Assembly: GCA_017415425.1 (NCBI GenBank)
Contig: JAFQGT010000013.1
Location: 41,755 to 105,754 of the forward strand
DNA length: 64,000 bases
From: Oscillospiraceae bacterium
GTDB taxonomy: Bacteria > Bacillota > Clostridia > Oscillospirales > Oscillospiraceae
Direction: 5' to 3'
The notes beneath the pieces were generated by a model. It was not told the DNA's origin. It saw only the letters and a list, made by a program, of their open reading frames with translations, and did not search any database. A program made the translations under genes and the position numbers. Shown here piece after piece: positions 2,127 to 64,000 of this stretch. The first letter of the stretch is position 1. Every line of letters begins with the position of its first letter.

Positions 2127-3173
2127 TTATGACTCTAAGAAGATTGGAGTACACTCCAATCCCCGCAACATAGTTTCTTGGTTATAACGAACTTTGATCA
2201 GCGCCGGGATCCCGGTATCCTGCTGCAGTTGCAAGCAAAGCGCCTTTAACGCTTCTTTTCCCTCCGGATCTACCCGGATATCACTGCTCTCCCAGCACGC
2301 CGGGTGACTTGCTTTGTATGGACTATCTTCATCTGCAAGCTCCGCTTCCAGTACTTCCAGCATTTCGGGATTCAGCTCAGTCCAGAAAATATCGCTATGG
2401 CTGCTCTCTGGGTGCTGGATCGTAAACAGGCTGGTTGCCGAAAAAGTGTTCGTCAAGTATGGATACAGCGTGGTTGCCCCTGGCGCTCTGCAATACAGGT
2501 TGATCAGCCGTTCGGACTCGCCGCCCCACTCGATCGCATAGTATAGTCCACCTTCGCACAGCCACACATCAAAAACCCTGCAGGGATTTATCAATGGAGT
2601 AACCTCTCCGGTGATCAGATCCACCTGCATGATCTCGGTATCGCTGTAGACATATGCTGCCCAGCCGTTAGCGCCAGCCAGCTGATAAGCAGTAAGTTGC
2701 TTGGATTCCGGGACCAGGTATGCCTCTTCCATCCCCGTTCCTTCAATGACCAGTCCATTTGCCATCATGCGGATCCGGTACAACTCCTGTTCCCCGTCAA
2801 TGGTAATATGCCATTGGGTAGAAGGAAGGTCATCCATATAATAGATTTCCTCCTGCTGGTCATAGCTTGCATTCTGATTTCTTTCCAAAAACCACACTGG
2901 AAGAGACGGATCTCGTGTTGGTGTTTCAGAGTGTTCTGTGGCTTGCGGCAGAGGGCTTTCCTGGGTGGAGGGTTCGGCGCTTTCCGTAGACTCTTCCGTG
3001 GGTTGATGCTCCGTTGTTGGTGTGGTTGCTTCTGTAGAATTGGTCGTACTTGCTTCTGTAAAAGCGGTCGCGCTTTTTTCTGTTCCGCCGGTCGGTTCCT
3101 CCGGGAGTTGGCCACATCCGGATAAAACCATAATTAGCAGGAAAAGTACTAGCCAAATACATATTCGCCTCAT
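2127..3173 (-). CDS. Lipoprotein with Thr/Glu/Pro-rich linker and beta-rich C-terminal domain
   Basis: A 348-residue predicted lipoprotein. The ATG at 3173 was preferred over 3194 because AGAGGAG sits about 7 bases upstream of it. A lipoprotein signal peptide ends in LSGC (lipidated Cys near residue 20). It is followed by a low-complexity Thr/Glu/Ser/Pro linker of about 60-70 residues that would hold the domain off the membrane or carry glycans. The rest (about 90-348) looks like short beta strands with recurring Tyr/Trp-rich motifs (IYYMDD, AAYVYSD, GLYYAIEWGG), reminiscent of beta-propeller surface proteins; I do not recognise a named family. It lies 38 bases after the frameshifted secreted protein gene and is probably co-transcribed with it. 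Confidence 0.65.
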   Translation of the reverse strand: MRRICIWLVLFLLIMVLSGCGQLPEEPTGGTEKSATAFTEASTTNSTEATTPTTEHQPTEESTESAEPSTQESPLPQATEHSETPTRDPSLPVWFLERNQNASYDQQEEIYYMDDLPSTQWHITIDGEQELYRIRMMANGLVIEGTGMEEAYLVPESKQLTAYQLAGANGWAAYVYSDTEIMQVDLITGEVTPLINPCRVFDVWLCEGGLYYAIEWGGESERLINLYCRAPGATTLYPYLTNTFSATSLFTIQHPESSHSDIFWTELNPEMLEVLEAELADEDSPYKASHPACWESSDIRVDPEGKEALKALCLQLQQDTGIPALIKVRYNQETMLRGLECTPIFLES

Positions 3174-3210
3174 ATATGCTCTCCTCTTAATCATTTGCCT
3201 TAATCATATA

Positions 3211-4787
3211 TTATATATTTACAGGCTCAACAACATTACTTCCCTTGACATAACCGCATACAGTGCAGACCCCTGAGGAAAATGAATGCACTGCCGTTAT
3301 ATAGCCGCTGCAGCAGCTATAGTAGATTCTGTGATTTTGCGTTGACGTAGCTACCGATTGCCTTACAGCAGTATGTGAAGACACTTTGGTAACGCCACAG
3401 CAGGAATAATTAGTGTTATGCACTTGCTGTGTAACAATTACGCTTTGTGAATTGCTGTGCAATTGACGCAGATAACCATCACAATTCTCACAGTCGTATT
3501 TATGGTAACTTGCGTTCTCAAATACTTTTTGTGTACTAAAATTATGGTCGACATAATACAACGCGCGGATATAGTGCCCAAAAATAGTAGTAAATGGATA
3601 GTATTGGTATCCTACACCACATTGACCATCTTGATTACATTCATACACCCAAATTCCCAATCCACTCGAATCAACTCTGTCAAAAACAATTGAATGCGTG
3701 CCATTTGATGGTGTTTGATCATTAACAGACACATATCGCACGAAGGCTCCTTTTGTTAACGATGCGAAAAAAGTTTTCATTGATTCGATACTTGCAAATT
3801 GCCAGTTTTCATGATAATCGGGATTTGTTGCTGTATTCGCAACCCAACTAGGTCCCTGTCTGCTCCAATCTTCAATATGCAAAAAACGGTCATGGGCATA
3901 TTTTGCAAACCCGTCACATTCGTTACTCCAAGCATAATTAGTGGTAAAATATGACAATACGGTGCTAGGAACAAAGCCTGTGCCTGGAACAGCGGGATAT
4001 TCAGGAAGCGGAAAGCTAACATCGTTCGTATTAGGGTCGAAATTTATCAGCGTATAAGTTGAATTCTCAGTTTCTTCTTCATCTGTTTCGAAGGAAATAT
4101 AGGGTGCAATGATACAATTCACCCCATACTCATTTCCTAGCACAGTATTTTCGTCTGAGGTAAGATTATAATAATTAGGAATCCCGTTTTCATCTCGCCA
4201 AATAATTTTATTGTCATCAAACATAAACATTGAACTAAATGTGTGACCGGATAGCACAGTTTCGGCTTCCTTAGTCGTCGTGTTTATGATAACAATGCTG
4301 TTCCCACCTTCAATAAAAGAGAGATACTCACCAAACACAACTGGTCTGTAAATCTCGTTCTCCTCTGATGTGTATATATACTCAAAAAAGGATCCGGAAT
4401 AATCCGTCTTAATAATTTTGCCGTCGACTGTAACGCAATACAGATGGTCTTTGGAAGAAGCATAACACTCTAGGGTTTCGTTCCCTATCTGAAGATTGGT
4501 CAATTCTTTACTGACTATATCAAATATATATAGCGACCCAATTACACAAACATTTGTATCGATATCTAAAGTCTCTGCTGGAGCATACCCTTTATATACA
4601 AATGGAAAAATATTATCCGGAGCCATACCATATGCCATTTTTTCATTGGATTTACCGGGAATTACATTCATTTCGTCCGTGGTAATTGAACCTATGGATA
4701 TATTTCCGTCAGCATATACCACAAAAGGCAATCTAAGAACTAAAATAGCCGCAAGTATTAAACAAAAAAAATAGTTTTTTTATTCAT
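3211..4787 (-). CDS. Secreted beta-propeller plus CHAP/NlpC-like protein, signal peptide frameshifted
   Basis: An open frame from about 4731 encodes 506 residues but starts inside a signal peptide. A good ATG at 4787 follows AAAGGAG but reads into a stop after nine codons, because the A7/T8 tract (4764-4781) is one base out of frame. Adding one base would give a signal peptide of about 27 residues ending VVYA. The N-terminal half has propeller-like repeats (LYCVTVDGKIIKTDYSG). The middle has SNECDGFAKYAHDRF and GTHSIVFDRVD, the Cys and His spacing of CHAP/NlpC-P60-type cysteine peptidases or amidases. The C terminus has Cys pairs (CENCDG, YSCCG, YSCCSG, CTVCG) resembling zinc ribbons. Codon use is AT-rich compared with neighbours. 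The frameshift may be real, phase-variable or a sequencing error. Confidence 0.6.
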
Positions 4788-57965: not shown

Positions 57966-59333
57966 TTACAGCTCCTTAATCAGCTTCTTAAAGTACTCTC
58001 CCCGAACCATAAAATTCTTAAACTGGTCAAAGGCCGCAGCTGCGGGGCTCAGCAGCACCACATCCCCCGCCTGGGCGTCCGCTGCAGCTTTGTACACAGC
58101 GGACGTCAGATCGCCGCAATCTATGATCTGCGGATAACCGGTTCTGTAATTGGGCGCATTTTCCACCGCAGCGCGGATCTGCCCGGCGGTGGCGCCGTTT
58201 AAGTACAGTTTCTTTACCCGCTCGCAGATCACCGGCCCTAGCACATCGTAGGGAATGTGCTTATCATAGCCGCCGGCGATCAGCAGCACCTGTTGGCTGA
58301 AACTGTTAAGGCCCGCAATGGTCCGGCTGGGAGAGGAGGCGATGGAGTCGTTATAATAGCGCACGCCGTCTTTGACCCGCACCAGCTCGATCCGATGCTC
58401 CACACCGCCAAACTCCCGGGCTACCTTGCGTATGATTTCGTCTTCCACCAGACCCTCTACCGCCAAAATGGCAGCCATATAATTTTCCACATTATGCACC
58501 CCGGGGATAAGAATATCCCGGGTATCCAAAACCGGATCGCCGTTCCGGCAGATCATATCCCCCTGCAAGCATACGCCGTTTTCGTTGTGGTGCAGGCGGG
58601 AGAAATACCGGGTCCGGCCTTTTCCGGAAAATTCCCTGGTAATGGCATTGTCTGCATTGAGAACCAGCAGGTCGTCCGCCATCTGGAAACGGAACAGATT
58701 CTTTTTCGCCTCCACATATTCATCCATATCCTTGTGGACATCCAAATGGTTGGGTGCCAGATTGGTGACCACCGCCACGTGGGGGCTGCGGCGCATATCC
58801 ATCAGTTGGAAGGAGCTCAGCTCTACCACCGCAAAATCTATCACCTGCATCTCATCCAGCAGGGGCAGCAGGGGCGTACCGATATTGCCACCCAGCCACA
58901 CGGTCTTCCCCGCCGCCTTCAGCATTTCGGAGATCAACGTGGTGGTAGTGGTCTTTCCGTCAGAGCCGGTGACTGCCAGAATGGTACAGGGGCACAGTTC
59001 AAAGAACACTTCCATCTCGCTGGTCACTTCCGCGCCGGATTGACGCAGCTGCTCCAATGCAGGATTGGCAGGATGCATACCGGGGGTGCGGAACACCATA
59101 TCCGCTGCCAGTCCATCCAGATAGGTTTCTCCCACCCGGAGCTGACAACCAAGCTGCTCCAACTCCAGCACTTCTTCCTCCAGCTGTTCCCGTGGCGTTT
59201 TGTCACAACCGATGACCCAGCAGCCATACCGGAGCATCAGCCGCACCAACGGGCGGTTGCTGACGCCCAATCCCAGTACCGCAATGGTTTTTCCCTGCAG
59301 AGAGGTAAAATAATTTTCCAAAATTCGTTCCAT
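57966..59333 (-). CDS. murD: UDP-N-acetylmuramoyl-L-alanine--D-glutamate ligase
   Basis: A 455-residue peptidoglycan ligase adding D-Glu in the cytoplasm. ATG 59333 follows GAGGTGG; the longer frame reads across the promoter. N-terminal VLGLGVSNRPLVRLML, central ATP site VTGSDGKTTTTTLI, NLAPNHLDVHKDMDEY, HRIELV and YNDSIASSPSRT, with the C-terminal ligase domain ending LSPAAAAFDQF. Typical length. Promoter 59372-59400. Confidence 0.98.
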   Translation of the reverse strand: MERILENYFTSLQGKTIAVLGLGVSNRPLVRLMLRYGCWVIGCDKTPREQLEEEVLELEQLGCQLRVGETYLDGLAADMVFRTPGMHPANPALEQLRQSGAEVTSEMEVFFELCPCTILAVTGSDGKTTTTTLISEMLKAAGKTVWLGGNIGTPLLPLLDEMQVIDFAVVELSSFQLMDMRRSPHVAVVTNLAPNHLDVHKDMDEYVEAKKNLFRFQMADDLLVLNADNAITREFSGKGRTRYFSRLHHNENGVCLQGDMICRNGDPVLDTRDILIPGVHNVENYMAAILAVEGLVEDEIIRKVAREFGGVEHRIELVRVKDGVRYYNDSIASSPSRTIAGLNSFSQQVLLIAGGYDKHIPYDVLGPVICERVKKLYLNGATAGQIRAAVENAPNYRTGYPQIIDCGDLTSAVYKAAADAQAGDVVLLSPAAAAFDQFKNFMVRGEYFKKLIKEL

Positions 59334-59371
59334 TCCTGCCACCTCGTCTCGGCAATACTTTTCTAAGATAT

Positions 59372-59400
59372 AGTATAGCCATTTTCCTGTAAATTTGCAA
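59372..59400 (-). promoter_or_regulatory. Promoter of murD
   Basis: Minus strand: TTGCAA (59395-59400), 17-base spacer, TATACT (59372-59377). Its -35 is five bases from that of the divergent PHP-phosphatase promoter. Confidence 0.6.
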
Positions 59401-59405
59401 GATAT

Positions 59406-59434
59406 TTGACAACCGGACCCAAGCGCAGTACAAT
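59406..59434 (+). promoter_or_regulatory. SigA promoter of the PHP phosphatase gene
   Basis: TTGACA (59406-59411), 17-base spacer, TACAAT (59429-59434), giving a short leader of about 25 bases. Confidence 0.8.
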
Positions 59435-59465
59435 AACGGCAAATAAGGCATAAGGACAAGCTATT

Positions 59466-60248
59466 ATGAAAGAGAATTTTCACACCCATACAGCCCGATG
59501 CCGTCACGCCACCGGTACGGAGGAAGAATATGTGCAGCAGGCCATCGCAGGCGGACTGCAGATTCTGGGTTTTTCCGATCACACCCCCTTTCGCTTCCCC
59601 GGCTCTTATTATTCCCATATGCGGATGTATCCGGAGGAACTAAAAGACTATGTGACTACCGTTCTGGCACTGAAAGAAAAATACGCCGGACAGATCGATA
59701 TTCGGCTGGGTCTGGAGGTAGAATACTACCCCGATCGCATCCCTGCCCTGCTGGATATGATCGCGCCGTTTGAGATTGAGTATTTGCTTCTGGGGCAGCA
59801 TTGGTGCGGAAACGAGCAAAACGAGCCCTACAACGGCCGCCCCACCGAGGATGTGGCACTTTTGAGCCGGTATTGCGATCAGGTGATCGCCGGAATGCAG
59901 ACGGGACTGTTTTCCTATGTTGCCCATCCGGACCTGCTGTATTTTGTGAGTGATCCAAAGGCTTACGCCACCCAAATGACCCGGCTGTGTCTGGCTGCCA
60001 AGGAGTTATCTGTACCGCTGGAACTGAATTTCCTGGGTCTGCGGGAGCATCGTCAGTATCCCCGGGAGGATTTCTGGAAGATCGCGGGAGAAATCGGCTG
60101 CCCGGTGGTTTTCGGCTGCGATGCCCACCAGCCACAGCACGTAACGGATGCCCCCTCAGAAAAAACAGCGCTGGAAATGGTAGACACTTACCGGCTGCAG
60201 TTTCTGGATTCCGTTCCTATCCACCCCTGGAGCAACGGGGGTATTTGA
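59466..60248 (+). CDS. PHP-domain phosphatase, histidinol-phosphatase-like
   Basis: A 260-residue protein of the HisK/HisJ class of PHP phosphatases. The PHP metal motif is at the start (NFHTHTARCRHA), followed by GFSDHTPFR, RLGLEVEYYP, LLGQHWCGNE, YVAHPDLLYF and FGCDAHQPQHV, which supply the metal ligands. It would hydrolyse histidinol phosphate to histidinol, but no other histidine gene is adjacent, so another phosphoester substrate is possible. AAGGA lies about ten bases before the ATG. Its stop codon lies inside the -35 box of the rnpB promoter. Confidence 0.85.
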   Translation: MKENFHTHTARCRHATGTEEEYVQQAIAGGLQILGFSDHTPFRFPGSYYSHMRMYPEELKDYVTTVLALKEKYAGQIDIRLGLEVEYYPDRIPALLDMIAPFEIEYLLLGQHWCGNEQNEPYNGRPTEDVALLSRYCDQVIAGMQTGLFSYVAHPDLLYFVSDPKAYATQMTRLCLAAKELSVPLELNFLGLREHRQYPREDFWKIAGEIGCPVVFGCDAHQPQHVTDAPSEKTALEMVDTYRLQFLDSVPIHPWSNGGI

Positions 60249-60280: not shown

Positions 60281-60637
60281 CGACCAGGTCGGACAGCCGC
60301 GGCTGAGCTCCGAAAGGGCTCAGGTGAGGAAAGTCCGGGCTTCACAGGGTAAGGATAACGGGTAACGCCCGCCGGGGGTGACCCCAGGACAAGTGCAACA
60401 GAGATATACCACCTAATAGCGGCAAAGCCGCCGTTAGGCCAGGGTGAAAAGGTGGGGTAAGAGCCCACCCGGCCTATGGAGACATAGGTTTTACGATGTA
60501 AACTCTATCCGAAGCAACACCGTGGGAGAACATATGGCTGACCCGGCCGTTCTCAGGAGGTGGCTGGAACCCGTGAGTAATTGCGGGTCTAGATAGATGG
60601 CTGTCAAGACAGAACCCGGCTTATAGGCCCGGTCGCG
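60281..60637 (+). ncRNA. rnpB: RNase P RNA, bacterial type A
   Basis: The catalytic RNA that trims the 5' ends of tRNA precursors. Helix P1 is closed by CGACC (60281-60285) and GGTCG (60631-60635). Conserved blocks: GAGGAAAGTCCGGGC near the 5' end, ACAGAGATATACC, GGTGAAAAGGTGGGGTAAGAG, and AGATAGATGGCTGTC with ACAGAACCCGGCTTA near the 3' end. Ends are estimated to within a few bases. A strong terminator follows at 60650-60688. Confidence 0.96.
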
Positions 60638-60649
60638 CCCCAAAAAATC

Positions 60650-60688
60650 AGCACCGCAGAAGAATACTTCTGCGGTGCTTTTCTATTT
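60650..60688 (+). terminator. Terminator of rnpB
   Basis: Stem AGCACCGCAGAAG / CTTCTGCGGTGCT with an AATA loop and TTTCTATTT. The opposite strand may also end the P-II operon. Confidence 0.9.
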
Positions 60689-60690
60689 GC

Positions 60691-61023
60691 TTATTCTGCC
60701 TTCGGCTGGGGCGCTGCCAGGCCTGTCACATCGGACACAGGCAGAGAAAATGCAATGCCTTGCGCCTTTTTGCCCATACCCATTCTGTTGTAGAGGGCGT
60801 TGAGCACCTTATCCCGCAGTTCCTTTTCCACCACCATCATCAGGATCTCCTTATCCGCGTGGATGGTAATGCCGAAAAAGGCCGCCTCAGATTCCTTAGC
60901 CACGCCGCGGGCGTTGAGGATCGTGCCGCCCCGGACACCCTGCTCCCGGGCTACATCCATCGCCTCTTCGGCAAAACCGGCATTCACTATAGCAAAAATC
61001 ACTTCGTGGTTGTTGGTTATCAT
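60691..61023 (-). CDS. P-II-like regulatory protein (second)
   Basis: A 110-residue protein of the GlnB/P-II-like ferredoxin fold. It has EVIFAIVNAGFAEEAMDVA, RGGTILNARG, which occupies the start of the T-loop region, and MVVEKELRDKVLNALYNRM; the C-terminal GIAFSLPVSDVTGL repeats a motif in the upstream paralogue. The usual uridylylated Tyr of GlnB was not found. It overlaps the first P-II gene by four bases. P-II proteins usually bind 2-oxoglutarate and adenylate nucleotides and control a membrane partner; here the likely partner is DUF1538. The effector is unknown. Confidence 0.8.
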   Translation of the reverse strand: MITNNHEVIFAIVNAGFAEEAMDVAREQGVRGGTILNARGVAKESEAAFFGITIHADKEILMMVVEKELRDKVLNALYNRMGMGKKAQGIAFSLPVSDVTGLAAPQPKAE

Positions 61024-61394
61024 TGGTTCTCCTCCTTCTTCAGGCGGTTATTACTCAAAAATTGATACAAACTCACACCGATCACACTGGACAGCGGTAC
61101 CGCAAAGGCAATGCCCTTGCCGTTGCGGATGGTGGCAAACTTCTCCTCCAGGCACTGCATAACCGTCTCCACCATATCCTCCCGGACCACGCTGAGGATC
61201 ACACCTTTGTTGATATTCAGACCCAGCATATCAATCAGCTCTGAATTGGCAGTGCCTTTGCCTGCCAAAACGGTCTGAAAATTCACTTCAAACTGGCTCA
61301 ACACATCCAAATAGAACTCGGTCTTGGAGCGGTCCACCACGGTAAATACCAGTTTGAGCTTTTTGATCGCCGATTCGTTCACTGTATTTGCCAT
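61020..61394 (-). CDS. P-II-like regulatory protein (first)
   Basis: A 124-residue P-II-like protein starting at ATG 61394 after a GGGGGCGG site; the upstream in-frame codon at 61442 lies inside DUF1538. Core features: KKLKLVFTVVDRSKTEFYL, GLNINKGVILSVVREDMV, EKFATIRNGKGIAFAVPLSSVIG, and a C-terminal FLSNNRLKK tail. It differs from its downstream neighbour by a longer T-loop-like region (FQTVLAGKGTANSELIDMLG). Two diverged P-II genes directly after one transporter gene suggest a heteromeric or two-signal regulator. Confidence 0.78.
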   Translation of the reverse strand: MANTVNESAIKKLKLVFTVVDRSKTEFYLDVLSQFEVNFQTVLAGKGTANSELIDMLGLNINKGVILSVVREDMVETVMQCLEEKFATIRNGKGIAFAVPLSSVIGVSLYQFLSNNRLKKEENQ

Positions 61395-61407
61395 TCCGCC
61401 GCCCCCT

Positions 61408-62931
61408 TTACATAAAGTTGATGATCTGCTGATCATCTGCATCCAGGATCCGCTTCATAGCCCGCTTCTCCTGAATCCGGTTATGGATGATTCCCCGGAA
61501 GCCCAAAAACTGAATGGTGATCAGCGGAGCCATTGCCACCAGAGCCACCACGCCGAAGGCGTCCCGCAGCACCGCATCGGCACCGTGAGTACCCACACAC
61601 ACGCCGATGGCAAAGGGCAGAACGAAGCCGGAGGTCATCGGACCGCTGGCCACGCCGCCGGAATCGAAGGCAATGGCTGTGTACACAGGGGGAACAAACA
61701 GCGACAGAGCAAGGGACAGGAAATATCCGGGAATGATGCAATAGACCAAAGAGAAATCGAAGACGATCCGTACCATAGACAGAGCGATGGCTGCGCCCAC
61801 ACCGATGCACAGGCCCACCAGCATTGACTTGCGGGTGATATAACCGCCGGTCACTTCCTCCACCTGGGAGTTCAGCACGTGGATGGCCGGCTCAGCCAGC
61901 ACCACCAGAATGCCCATCAGAAGGCCCAACCCTGTAACCAACCAGGGATTCATCGTCGAAAGGGCCATGCCCAGCTTGTAGCCGATGGGCATAAAGCCCA
62001 CATTGACGCCGGTAAGGAAAATCACCAGACCTGCATAAGTGATTACCACACCTACGCCGATCCGCATCAGTTGCCGCATCGGCAGGCGCAGGAAGGCGAT
62101 CTGGCAGCCAACAAAGAACAAGACGATCATACCCAAGGCAATAGCCACCTCTTTGGAAGTATGAGCAGCTGTATGCAAGAAAGAACCGAAAATATCCGCA
62201 TTTACAGAAAAATCCGGCACGGAATAGGACAGATCAGATGTGGAAAAAACACCCAGCAGCAGCACTGCCAGAATGGGGCCTACCGAGCACAGGGCCACCA
62301 TACCGAAGCTATTCTCCTGGGAACGCCGGTCACCCAGCACGCTGGAGATACCCACGCACAATGCCATAATAAAGGGTACTGTGATGGGTCCGGTGGTCAC
62401 GCCGCCGGAGTCAAAGGCCATCGGCAGCAGCGGCAGCCGATCTCCCACCGCCAGCATCAGTGCCAGTGAGAACAGCAGCATATAAAACAGCATCAGGATC
62501 ATTGCCAGCCGACGACGGAACACGATCCGCAAAATGGCAACGATCAAAAATGCGCCCACACCGATACCAACCGCATAGATCAGCACTGTACCGTTCATCA
62601 CGGAGCTGACCTGCTTAGCCAGCACCTGCAGGTCCGGCTCTGCCACGGTGATCAGCAGGCCCATAGCAAAACACACACTCAGCAGCAGCCACAGTTTCTT
62701 CTGCCGGGACAGGCCGGCACCTATGTGAGTACCCATCGGAGTCATTGCCAGATCCGCACCCATATTAAAAAGGCCAATGCCCAGGACTAGCAGAATCGCG
62801 CCTACCGTGAAGGTGATCAGTTCTGTCCGTGTCATAGAAAACCACGGCAGCAGCGCAACCAGATAGACGATCAGTGTGATCGGCAGGGCGGAAATCAACG
62901 CTTCTTTGATTTTCGCTTGCAGCTCTCTCAA
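61408..62931 (-). CDS. DUF1538 membrane protein, internally duplicated
   Basis: A 507-residue integral membrane protein with about 12 hydrophobic segments and two DUF1538 halves. Each half carries the motif FDSGGVTTGP (about residue 178) or FDSGGVASGP (about 428) followed by a helix ending in CVG; other Gly-Ala-rich segments such as MGADLAMTPMGTHIGAG and MPIGYKLGMAL match between halves. This inverted-repeat-like layout is typical of transporters. TTG 62931 follows GGGAGTG. The P-II genes start 13 bases after its stop, so control by P-II proteins is inferred. The substrate is unknown. Confidence 0.88.
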   Translation of the reverse strand: MRELQAKIKEALISALPITLIVYLVALLPWFSMTRTELITFTVGAILLVLGIGLFNMGADLAMTPMGTHIGAGLSRQKKLWLLLSVCFAMGLLITVAEPDLQVLAKQVSSVMNGTVLIYAVGIGVGAFLIVAILRIVFRRRLAMILMLFYMLLFSLALMLAVGDRLPLLPMAFDSGGVTTGPITVPFIMALCVGISSVLGDRRSQENSFGMVALCSVGPILAVLLLGVFSTSDLSYSVPDFSVNADIFGSFLHTAAHTSKEVAIALGMIVLFFVGCQIAFLRLPMRQLMRIGVGVVITYAGLVIFLTGVNVGFMPIGYKLGMALSTMNPWLVTGLGLLMGILVVLAEPAIHVLNSQVEEVTGGYITRKSMLVGLCIGVGAAIALSMVRIVFDFSLVYCIIPGYFLSLALSLFVPPVYTAIAFDSGGVASGPMTSGFVLPFAIGVCVGTHGADAVLRDAFGVVALVAMAPLITIQFLGFRGIIHNRIQEKRAMKRILDADDQQIINFM

Positions 62932-63023
62932 GATTTTTCACACTCCCATTTATTTTTCAAAATTATAACATAACTTCCCGGAAAATCCTAGTGTAAAACC
63001 GGAAATAATTGTAACGAAAGGGT

Positions 63024-63055
63024 AAAGACCCCCAGTCCGAAGACTGGGGGTCTTG
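63024..63055 (-). terminator. Terminator of tuf
   Basis: Stem AAGACCCCCAGTC / GACTGGGGGTCTT with a TTCG loop, just after the tuf stop; the T tract is short. Confidence 0.8.
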
Positions 63056-63076
63056 TAAGCGTTTTGGAATCAAGAA

Positions 63077-64000
63077 TTACTCGTAGATCTCGGTAACAAC
63101 GCCGGAACCAACGGTACGGCCACCTTCACGGATAGCGAAACGCAGGCCCTTCTCGATAGCGATGGGGGTGATCAGCTCAACATTCATAACAACGTTGTCG
63201 CCGGGCATACACATCTCAACGCCCTCGGGCAGGCTGATGATGCCGGTAACGTCAGTGGTACGGAAGTAGAACTGAGGACGATAGTTGTTAAAGAAGGGGG
63301 TGTGACGGCCGCCTTCTTCCTTGGACAGGACGTAAACCTGACCTGCAAACTTGGTCAGAGGCTTGATGGAACCGGGCTTGCACAGAACCTGGCCGCGCTC
63401 GATTTCTTTCTTGTCAACGCCACGCAGCAGAGCACCGATGTTGTCGCCAGCTTCTGCGTAATCCAGTAGCTTGTGGAACATTTCGATATCGGTACAAACA
63501 GTTTCCTTCTTCTCCTCACGCAGGCCGACGATCTCGACCTTATCGTTCTTGTTGATCTGGCCACGCTCAACACGACCGGTAGCAACAGTACCACGGCCGG
63601 AGATGGTGAAGACGTCCTCAACGGGCATCAGGAAGGGCATATCAGCCTTACGGTCGGGAGTAGGAATGTACTCGTCGACAGCATCCATCAGAGCCTTGAT
63701 GCAAGCGTACTCGGGAGCGCTGGGATCGTTGGACTCGGAGATCAGAGCGTTCAGAGCGGAACCCTGGACAACAGGGATGTCGTCGCCGGGGAACTCGTAG
63801 AAGGACAGAGTCTCACGGATCTCCATCTCAACCAGCTCCAGCAGCTCGGCATCGTCAACCAGGTCAGCCTTATTCATGAACACAACGATAGCGGGCACGC
63901 CAACCTGACGAGCCAGCAGCAGGTGCTCCTTGGTCTGAGCCATGGGGCCGTCGGTGGAAGCGATAACCAGGATAGCGCCGTCCATCTGAGCAGCACCGGT
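63077..64000 (-). CDS. tuf: Elongation factor Tu, C-terminal part
   Basis: Partial gene: 308 codons are visible and the N-terminal part (with the P-loop) runs off the right edge. Visible: [14 protein letters not shown], the G4 motif NKADLVDD, G5-like [10 protein letters not shown], then domain 2 ([13 protein letters not shown]) and domain 3 ([27 protein letters not shown]-like [27 protein letters not shown]) ending in EIYE. Codon usage is strongly biased as expected for a highly expressed gene. It delivers aminoacyl-tRNA to the ribosome. Confidence 0.98.

Follow-up and report, generated by a model that had tools for sequence, protein, structure and literature searches.

The only characterised DUF1538 proteins that we found are UmpA and UmpB of Halomonas zhaodongensis, whose heterodimer is described to work as a Na+(Li+,K+)/H+ antiporter, best at pH 9 (PMC5484666), and DUF1538 appears in a table of growth-pH features (PMC13255231). 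Here we describe a DUF1538 gene followed by two P-II genes, P-II A and P-II B, in a 64,000-nt stretch (hereafter, the window) of contig JAFQGT010000013.1 from an Oscillospiraceae bacterium (GCA_017415425.1), where the three genes form, in this order, an apparent single transcription unit on the minus strand. We consider it fairly probable (around 0.6) that this operon encodes an UmpAB/DUF1538-family cation/proton antiporter with a dedicated cytosolic P-II switch. What we computed directly are the genes and their mutual linkage, the opposite charge bias of the DUF1538 halves, copy numbers that vary together, and the absence of canonical ligand residues from the P-IIs. This DUF1538/P-II team of a gut bacterium is also found in bacteria only remotely related to it, and probably works as an ion pump that can be switched.

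Two known kinds of system are joined here, a P-II-controlled transporter and an antiparallel two-domain transporter, and we file the locus under both. NifI1 and NifI2 are two different P-II paralogues of one operon with one target, nitrogenase; P-II A and P-II B resemble them as paired paralogues, while their DUF1538 target would be a membrane protein. GlnK-AmtB uses the canonical P-II effectors, whereas the residues key to these effectors are lost in the DUF1538-linked P-IIs. The likeness to GlnK-AmtB is that of a P-II gene paired with a transporter gene, the P-II acting on the transporter (PMC3831643, PMC8395244), and the difference is a transporter family other than DUF1538. PII-NG, itself related to P-II, clusters with CzcABC, a proton/cation antiporter (PMC7726332); CzcABC is a metal exporter, while the neighbour here is DUF1538, and the two cases are likened by gene neighbourhood alone. 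The window protein shares its Pfam family with UmpA and UmpB, two homologous subunits published with seven transmembrane (TM) segments each and acting as a heterodimer (PMC5484666), but it is fused and lies under the equivalog cut-offs of both, in a comparison by profile score alone. The text of that paper contains neither "P-II" or "PII" nor "topology" or "antiparallel". Among the papers listed in our literature search, which excluded subscription papers and preprints, we found no description of the DUF1538/P-II pairing or of DUF1538 topology, and the papers that we found to mention DUF1538 do not have "P-II family" in their text.

An original prediction for this DNA had described an operon in which a duplicated DUF1538 protein is joined by two diverged P-II-like genes, and all three genes are on the minus strand at the positions it gave. 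The ATGA overlap that it mentioned lies at 61023-61020 and joins P-II A to P-II B, while 13 nt separate DUF1538 from P-II A. Its assignment to P-II is supported by profiles, with PF00543 scores of 27.4 bits for P-II B and 26.0 for P-II A, which pass the curated cut-off of 25 narrowly. The substrate had been given as not known; this has to be amended, as DUF1538 includes UmpAB, a demonstrated Na+(Li+,K+)/H+ antiporter, though only a distant relative (PMC5484666). The main features are:

61408..62931, minus strand: fused two-domain DUF1538 membrane protein of the UmpAB antiporter family, 507 aa, TTG start (PF07556 and NCBIfam UmpA/UmpB scores)
62248..62931, minus strand: N-terminal half of the DUF1538 protein (roughly aa 1-228), predicted to have seven TM segments in N-in/C-out orientation, with AEPDL and AFDSGGVTTGP motifs (hydropathy and K/R profile)
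61498..62154, minus strand: C-terminal half of the DUF1538 protein (roughly aa 260-478), predicted to have seven TM segments in N-out/C-in orientation, with AEPA and AFDSGGVASGP motifs (hydropathy and K/R profile)
61408..61461, minus strand: C-terminal tail with ILDADDQQII, predicted cytosolic, candidate P-II docking site
61020..61394, minus strand: P-II A, the first of the two paralogues, 124 aa, diverging fast and with most of its T-loop lost (PF00543, alignment, tree group of first P-IIs)
60691..61023, minus strand: P-II B, 110 aa, second P-II paralogue (PF00543, alignment)
61020..61023, minus strand: ATGA overlap in which P-II A ends and P-II B begins (sequence)

The window protein matches PF07556 in two stretches, with 413.9 bits (E 1.3e-124) against a Pfam curated cut-off of 22.6. 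Among the matches listed, its nearest named relatives are Oscillospiraceae/Clostridia assemblies with 73-77% identity and the isolate Pseudoflavonifractor sp. MSJ-30 (L111) with 71%; its N-half is 34% identical to a member of a Methylocystis pair. E98 (D in three rows), R/K135 and D174 (E in five) are kept in all 344 aligned DUF1538 domains, and charged residues conserved in this way would fit an ion-coupled transport mechanism, as expected. PDB sequence searches gave no real match for DUF1538, and PADLOC gave no match for DUF1538 or P-II A and only a 14-bit match for P-II B.

Linkage of DUF1538 and P-II genes

Loci were collected via DUF1538 and P-II was looked for afterwards, so that the presence of P-II is not built into the count. 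Loci sharing an identical 90-residue stretch were removed, a locus was called uncut when its system lay farther than 150 bases from the end of the retrieved sequence, and adjacency required a P-II next downstream of DUF1538, on the same strand and within 600 nt. Of the 171 non-identical uncut DUF1538 loci in this sample, which leans towards one phylum, 169 have an adjacent P-II. The two exceptions are a remnant with stop codons in the matching region (L225) and a spurious frame (L200), and three of the 169 (L160, L203 and L229) are frame-broken or fragmentary, with unreliable copy numbers. Thirty additional loci are cut by the stretch end, P-II being still visible in 27. The original prediction had made its case depend on conservation beyond this genome, which is found by a wide margin.

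The scan of named genomes used the best 80 of 584 confirmed DUF1538 places, which belong by record title to Clostridia, Bacteroidales, Fibrobacter, Erysipelotrichaceae and others, nearly all of them metagenome assemblies. Two P-II genes lie downstream in 78 of these 80, and the other two (L057 and L086) show one P-II before the contig ends. DUF1538 matches were found in 48 of 101 genomes of the window's own family, one of them (G459) being a spurious frame, and in 8 of 198 genomes in the phylum of L095, a Bacteroidales record. All 20 own-family loci taken from the 48 matching genomes have two P-II domains fused in one protein. As a hunt for exceptions, 39 further loci were hand-picked from the match lists, many of them low-ranked. 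With matches in 139 of 398 sampled genomes of the window's phylum, DUF1538 is a common family whose regulation has so far been obscure, and it gains here a concrete, testable partner.

For the reverse test, a P-II profile that also contained E. coli GlnB and GlnK was searched against the 101 own-family genomes, with an E cut chosen after viewing the list. At E <= 4.1e-19, 47 of 48 P-II places are within 3 kb of DUF1538, and the remaining one (G434) is at a contig end. Below the cut there are more places in the same systems, a P-II adjacent to DUF1538 in G465 (3.1e-15) and P-IIs elsewhere; the two inspected P-IIs away from DUF1538 adjoin ammonium transporters (G429:C12, 1.5e-16, the same as L205, and G404:C9, the same as L206). 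On plasmids (tblastn, 72,556 records), a DUF1538 query and a query with a proteobacterial P-II of this type match the same 9 records, and five annotated ones carry a "DUF1538 domain-containing protein" beside a "P-II family nitrogen regulator", two of them from alphaproteobacteria.

The other neighbours were clustered for 125 loci, with an open reading frame picking that let some antisense frames displace P-II or DUF1538. ATP-binding cassette transporter ATPases occur in 21 loci, in scattered places and strands, and frames antisense to P-II make up clusters of 21 and 9 loci. Since the next clusters are scattered or antisense, nothing else was seen linked to DUF1538/P-II in these loci. The linkage between DUF1538 and this type of P-II is deeply conserved and mutually specific.

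Orientation of the DUF1538 halves and gene architectures

The seven TM segments of each half were placed by hand from the averaged hydropathy of 51 fused proteins, and the lysine plus arginine (K+R) bias was calculated as odd minus even loops, a measure from PMC3962082, for non-identical proteins, with lengths limited to 470-620 aa for fused and 215-300 aa for single-domain ones. In the ANTIPARALLEL halves, the fused N-halves have a mean bias of +7.14, above zero in 136 of 136, and the fused C-halves a mean of -6.01, below zero in 135 of 136 with one zero. Paired genes repeat this division, with +4.38 for the first genes (29/29 positive) and -4.34 for the second (28/29 negative). The signs are kept after thinning to less than 60% identity (39/39 fused N, 23/23 fused C, 12/12 first and 11/12 second genes), and the thinned means for internal loops only are +5.64, -2.30, +2.83 and -1.25, with +1.00 for single genes. 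The control residues do not separate first from second units (Mann-Whitney p 0.88 for aspartate plus glutamate and 0.91 for asparagine plus glutamine, vs 3.6e-15 for K+R). That the DUF1538 halves are antiparallel 7-TM repeats is, as a prediction from these charges, well supported.

Lone single-domain genes have a mean bias of +0.14 (n=14, range -2 to +4), seven of them being at zero; 12 of the 14 fall within -2 to +2, and the other two are at +3 and +4. Thinning leaves 5 clusters with a mean of +1.20. A bias near zero would be expected of dual-topology homodimers; these single genes likely have dual topology, the independent sequences being few and two of them leaning positive. To our knowledge, a 7-TM DUF1538 unit would be the largest known dual-topology protomer. 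For UPF0016, DUF606, SMR and Fluc, dual-topology singles, opposite pairs and antiparallel fusions are described within one family (PMC4067407, PMC3962082), a series that DUF1538 may share, and DUF606 and UPF0016 were in 2014, to the knowledge of the authors, the only families of such diversity (PMC4067407). Their units are smaller than the seven TM segments predicted for DUF1538, with three in UPF0016 and three to four in the five dual-topology candidates of PMC3962082, and no linked P-II is mentioned for UPF0016, DUF606, SMR or Fluc in the relevant passages of PMC4067407 and PMC3962082.

In a maximum-likelihood tree of 91 thinned domains, the fused N-halves with the first genes (51), the fused C-halves with the second genes (35) and the single genes (5) are each on a starred branch. 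The tree fits one duplication, a divergence to opposite orientations and a later fusion. The fused label needs two changes per side because the Bacteroidota protein L145 sits among the pairs, which would mean that fusion happened twice, or once with a subsequent split.

The number of P-II copies mostly tracks the state of DUF1538. We searched again 20 genomes, of which 14 have an intact single-domain DUF1538 gene and 6 are contig-cut or degenerate; alongside each of the 14 genes exactly one P-II was found within the approximately 1.5 kb examined. Thirteen of these genomes are without another DUF1538 match, and G040 also has a fused system. Among the uncut loci, single-domain pairs are accompanied by one P-II (11, plus 2 with the unit twice), a fused P-II-P-II (8) or two P-II genes (7), and fused DUF1538 by two P-II genes (78) or a fused P-II-P-II (44, plus one with the unit twice). 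The only uncut fused DUF1538 with a single P-II is the broken gene of L203. In L157 (Bacteroidota genome G586), a fused DUF1538 is followed by a 380-aa chain (2247-3389) with three matches to the P-II profile, while Pfam counts one stretch; the chain is possibly a natural covalent P-II trimer. Of 83 systems that combine a fused DUF1538 with two P-II genes (the window being counted twice, as L001 and L033), 33 carry the strict ILDADDxQII tail, as do both fused-DUF1538 systems cut after one P-II; it is found in 0 of 55 with fused P-II and in 0 of the other architectures. The tail may be a docking site for P-II.

More tentatively, and with slightly less than even odds, DUF1538 would keep every evolutionary state of an inverted-repeat transporter (dual-topology single, antiparallel pair, and fused in at least two lineages), with P-II evolving in step (one with the single, one or two with the pairs, two or more with the fused form) and P-II binding breaking the symmetry of the homodimer. 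An antiparallel homodimer presents the same face on both sides and P-II reaches only one of them, so that the exchanger, made asymmetric by the binding, would gain a direction or become locked. If the single-gene members insert both ways, they provide a new natural series for the evolution of inverted-repeat transporters, in which the soluble P-II regulator would be an internal orientation marker.

Three genomes (L188, L189 and L195) have the entire DUF1538-P-II unit in tandem duplicate. The fused DUF1538 of L018 (1159-2988) is extended at its C-terminus by a charged tail of about 100 residues. In L083 (4734-9524), an open frame of 1596 aa has DUF1538 as its last part and no Pfam match in its first approximately 1000 aa, which is probably an open-frame artefact.

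The P-II partners and the proposed switch

NCBIfam searches gave no name to P-II A or P-II B, and in PDB sequence searches P-II A had no match, while P-II B and a homologue had weak matches to P-II-family entries. Positions were numbered by alignment to E. coli GlnB and GlnK, in which we take K90, R101 and R103 to be the phosphate-binding residues of GlnB and Y51 to be in the T-loop. B-type and single P-IIs keep G27, G35, G89 and F92 in 31/31, but K90 is I/L in 31/31, R101 is G in 29/31 and Y51 is Y in only 2/31; all 31 lack a piece of the T-loop that spans six alignment columns. The A-type P-IIs (24 rows) keep G35 and G89, have I/V for K90 and G for R101 in 24/24, and lost most of the T-loop including Y51 in 24/24. 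The P-IIs of the window do not have the canonical GlnB/GlnK set of K90, R101, R103 and a T-loop with Y51. With K90, R101 and part of the T-loop lost, ordinary 2-oxoglutarate sensing is unlikely.

In the P-II tree, built on 108 columns and with many weak forks, the first P-IIs group together (69 of 70 rows; the lone exception, L081, is a swapped label from overlapping frames), and the second and single ones are scattered. The canonical P-IIs, three rows, are united in a 100/100 group with a branch length of 3.67, attached inside five second P-IIs next to L187 (86/0), so the tree is no proof that the DUF1538-type P-IIs exclude canonical ones. In the window's own genome (97.4% complete), P-II B is the only Pfam P-II match above the cut-off, the subfamily profile (which includes the two E. 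coli P-IIs) matches only the two P-IIs of the window, and there is no ammonium transporter match. Taken with the two inspected own-family P-IIs away from DUF1538, which adjoin ammonium transporters, this makes a nitrogen-type use less likely here.

We propose that the DUF1538 protein would be a monovalent cation/proton antiporter with its two antiparallel 7-TM repeats in one chain, that P-II A and P-II B would assemble on its cytosolic face, and that the binding of a small effector to the P-IIs would raise or lower transport. This effector would be other than 2-oxoglutarate and ATP bound in the GlnB manner, because the key residues are gone. Exchange of Na+, K+ or Li+ against H+ is suggested by one characterised, distant family member, and binding of P-II to the transporter, with transport gated by it, is suggested by the gene linkage. 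The system suggests that P-II signalling here serves something other than nitrogen control, probably the balance of cations or pH. A cyclic di-AMP (c-di-AMP) synthase domain is encoded in the window's own genome, and c-di-AMP is a possible effector, although nothing singles it out. A c-di-AMP riboswitch in L009 (2913-3085, 102 bits) starts just 3' of the second P-II gene, where it would be the leader of the gene that follows, and an S-adenosylmethionine riboswitch in L111 is about 2.8 kb upstream of DUF1538, so that neither is a leader of the operon.

Several results weigh against a P-II-switched antiporter of the UmpAB type. The window protein scores 141.3 bits (E 3e-41) with the NCBIfam model of UmpA (NF041627, cut-off 490) and 114.6 bits (E 5e-33) with that of UmpB (NF041628, cut-off 500), and together with eight other DUF1538 proteins it stays within 80-141 bits, far below both equivalog cut-offs, so the substrate could differ. 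No riboswitch directly leading the operon was found in 49 loci at gathering scores, hence there is no ligand hint from this side. The cloned Halomonas fragment ends at umpB, and umpAB alone is functional in E. coli (PMC5484666); P-II is therefore not always needed for transport, and more probably tunes or locks it than forms an essential part. The distance to UmpAB also speaks for a P-II-gated transporter of some other substrate (e.g. bicarbonate, ammonium or an organic ion), the UmpAB activity being peculiar to one branch. SbtB, the P-II-type partner of the bicarbonate transporter SbtA, would be a precedent for it, as would GlnK with the ammonium transporter AmtB (PMC3831643). We hold this to be unlikely but worth keeping in view, as the sole measured activity that we found in the family is Na+(Li+,K+)/H+ antiport (PMC5484666) and the charged residues at 98, 135 and 174 are kept in every aligned domain.

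The near-obligate linkage, the matched copy number, the P-II-P-II fusions and the loss of known effector residues would also suit P-IIs that are constitutive structural subunits or assembly factors instead of a reversible, ligand-driven switch. This seems quite unlikely, considering the conservation of G27, G35, G89 and F92 in all B-type and single P-IIs and the activity of UmpAB in E. coli from a clone ending at umpB. Ordinary nitrogen-sensing P-IIs (ATP/ADP/2-oxoglutarate, uridylylation) placed beside a transporter by chance would agree with the Pfam matches, with the nitrogen regulator annotation in the five plasmid records and with the canonical rows attaching within second P-IIs and not outside the subfamily. 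The long canonical branch, however, makes that attachment unsure, and the replacement of K90 and R101 together with the fate of Y51 (kept in two B-type/single rows, deleted in every A-type row) renders such a chance association very improbable.

Signals and neighbouring genes in the window

The DUF1538/P-II/P-II unit is flanked by an EF-Tu gene and by the convergent gene of the RNase P RNA. The open frame of P-II A begins at 61442, and its probable start is the ATG at 61394, 3' of the GGGGGCGGCGG stretch. A consensus scan of 60500-63300 returned 4 promoter-like sites, where 1.8 would be expected, and 5 terminator-like sites against an expected 3.4. The remaining features around the operon are:

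62943..62947, minus strand: GGGAG, resembling a ribosome-binding site, 5' of the DUF1538 TTG start (sequence)
62962..62970, minus strand: candidate extended -10 box TGTTATAAT, picked by eye and absent from the consensus-scan output
60650..60679, both strands: two-way terminator-like hairpin between P-II B and rnpB, with a 13-bp stem
60281-60679, convergent with the operon: RNase P RNA gene (rnpB), sharing the two-way terminator-like hairpin

In L019 and L031, rnpB is also found upstream of DUF1538. Farther along the minus strand of the window, a MurD-like frame (57966-59618) has about 100 residues before the MurD-like_N domain, which begins at residue 110, and its true start is probably internal.

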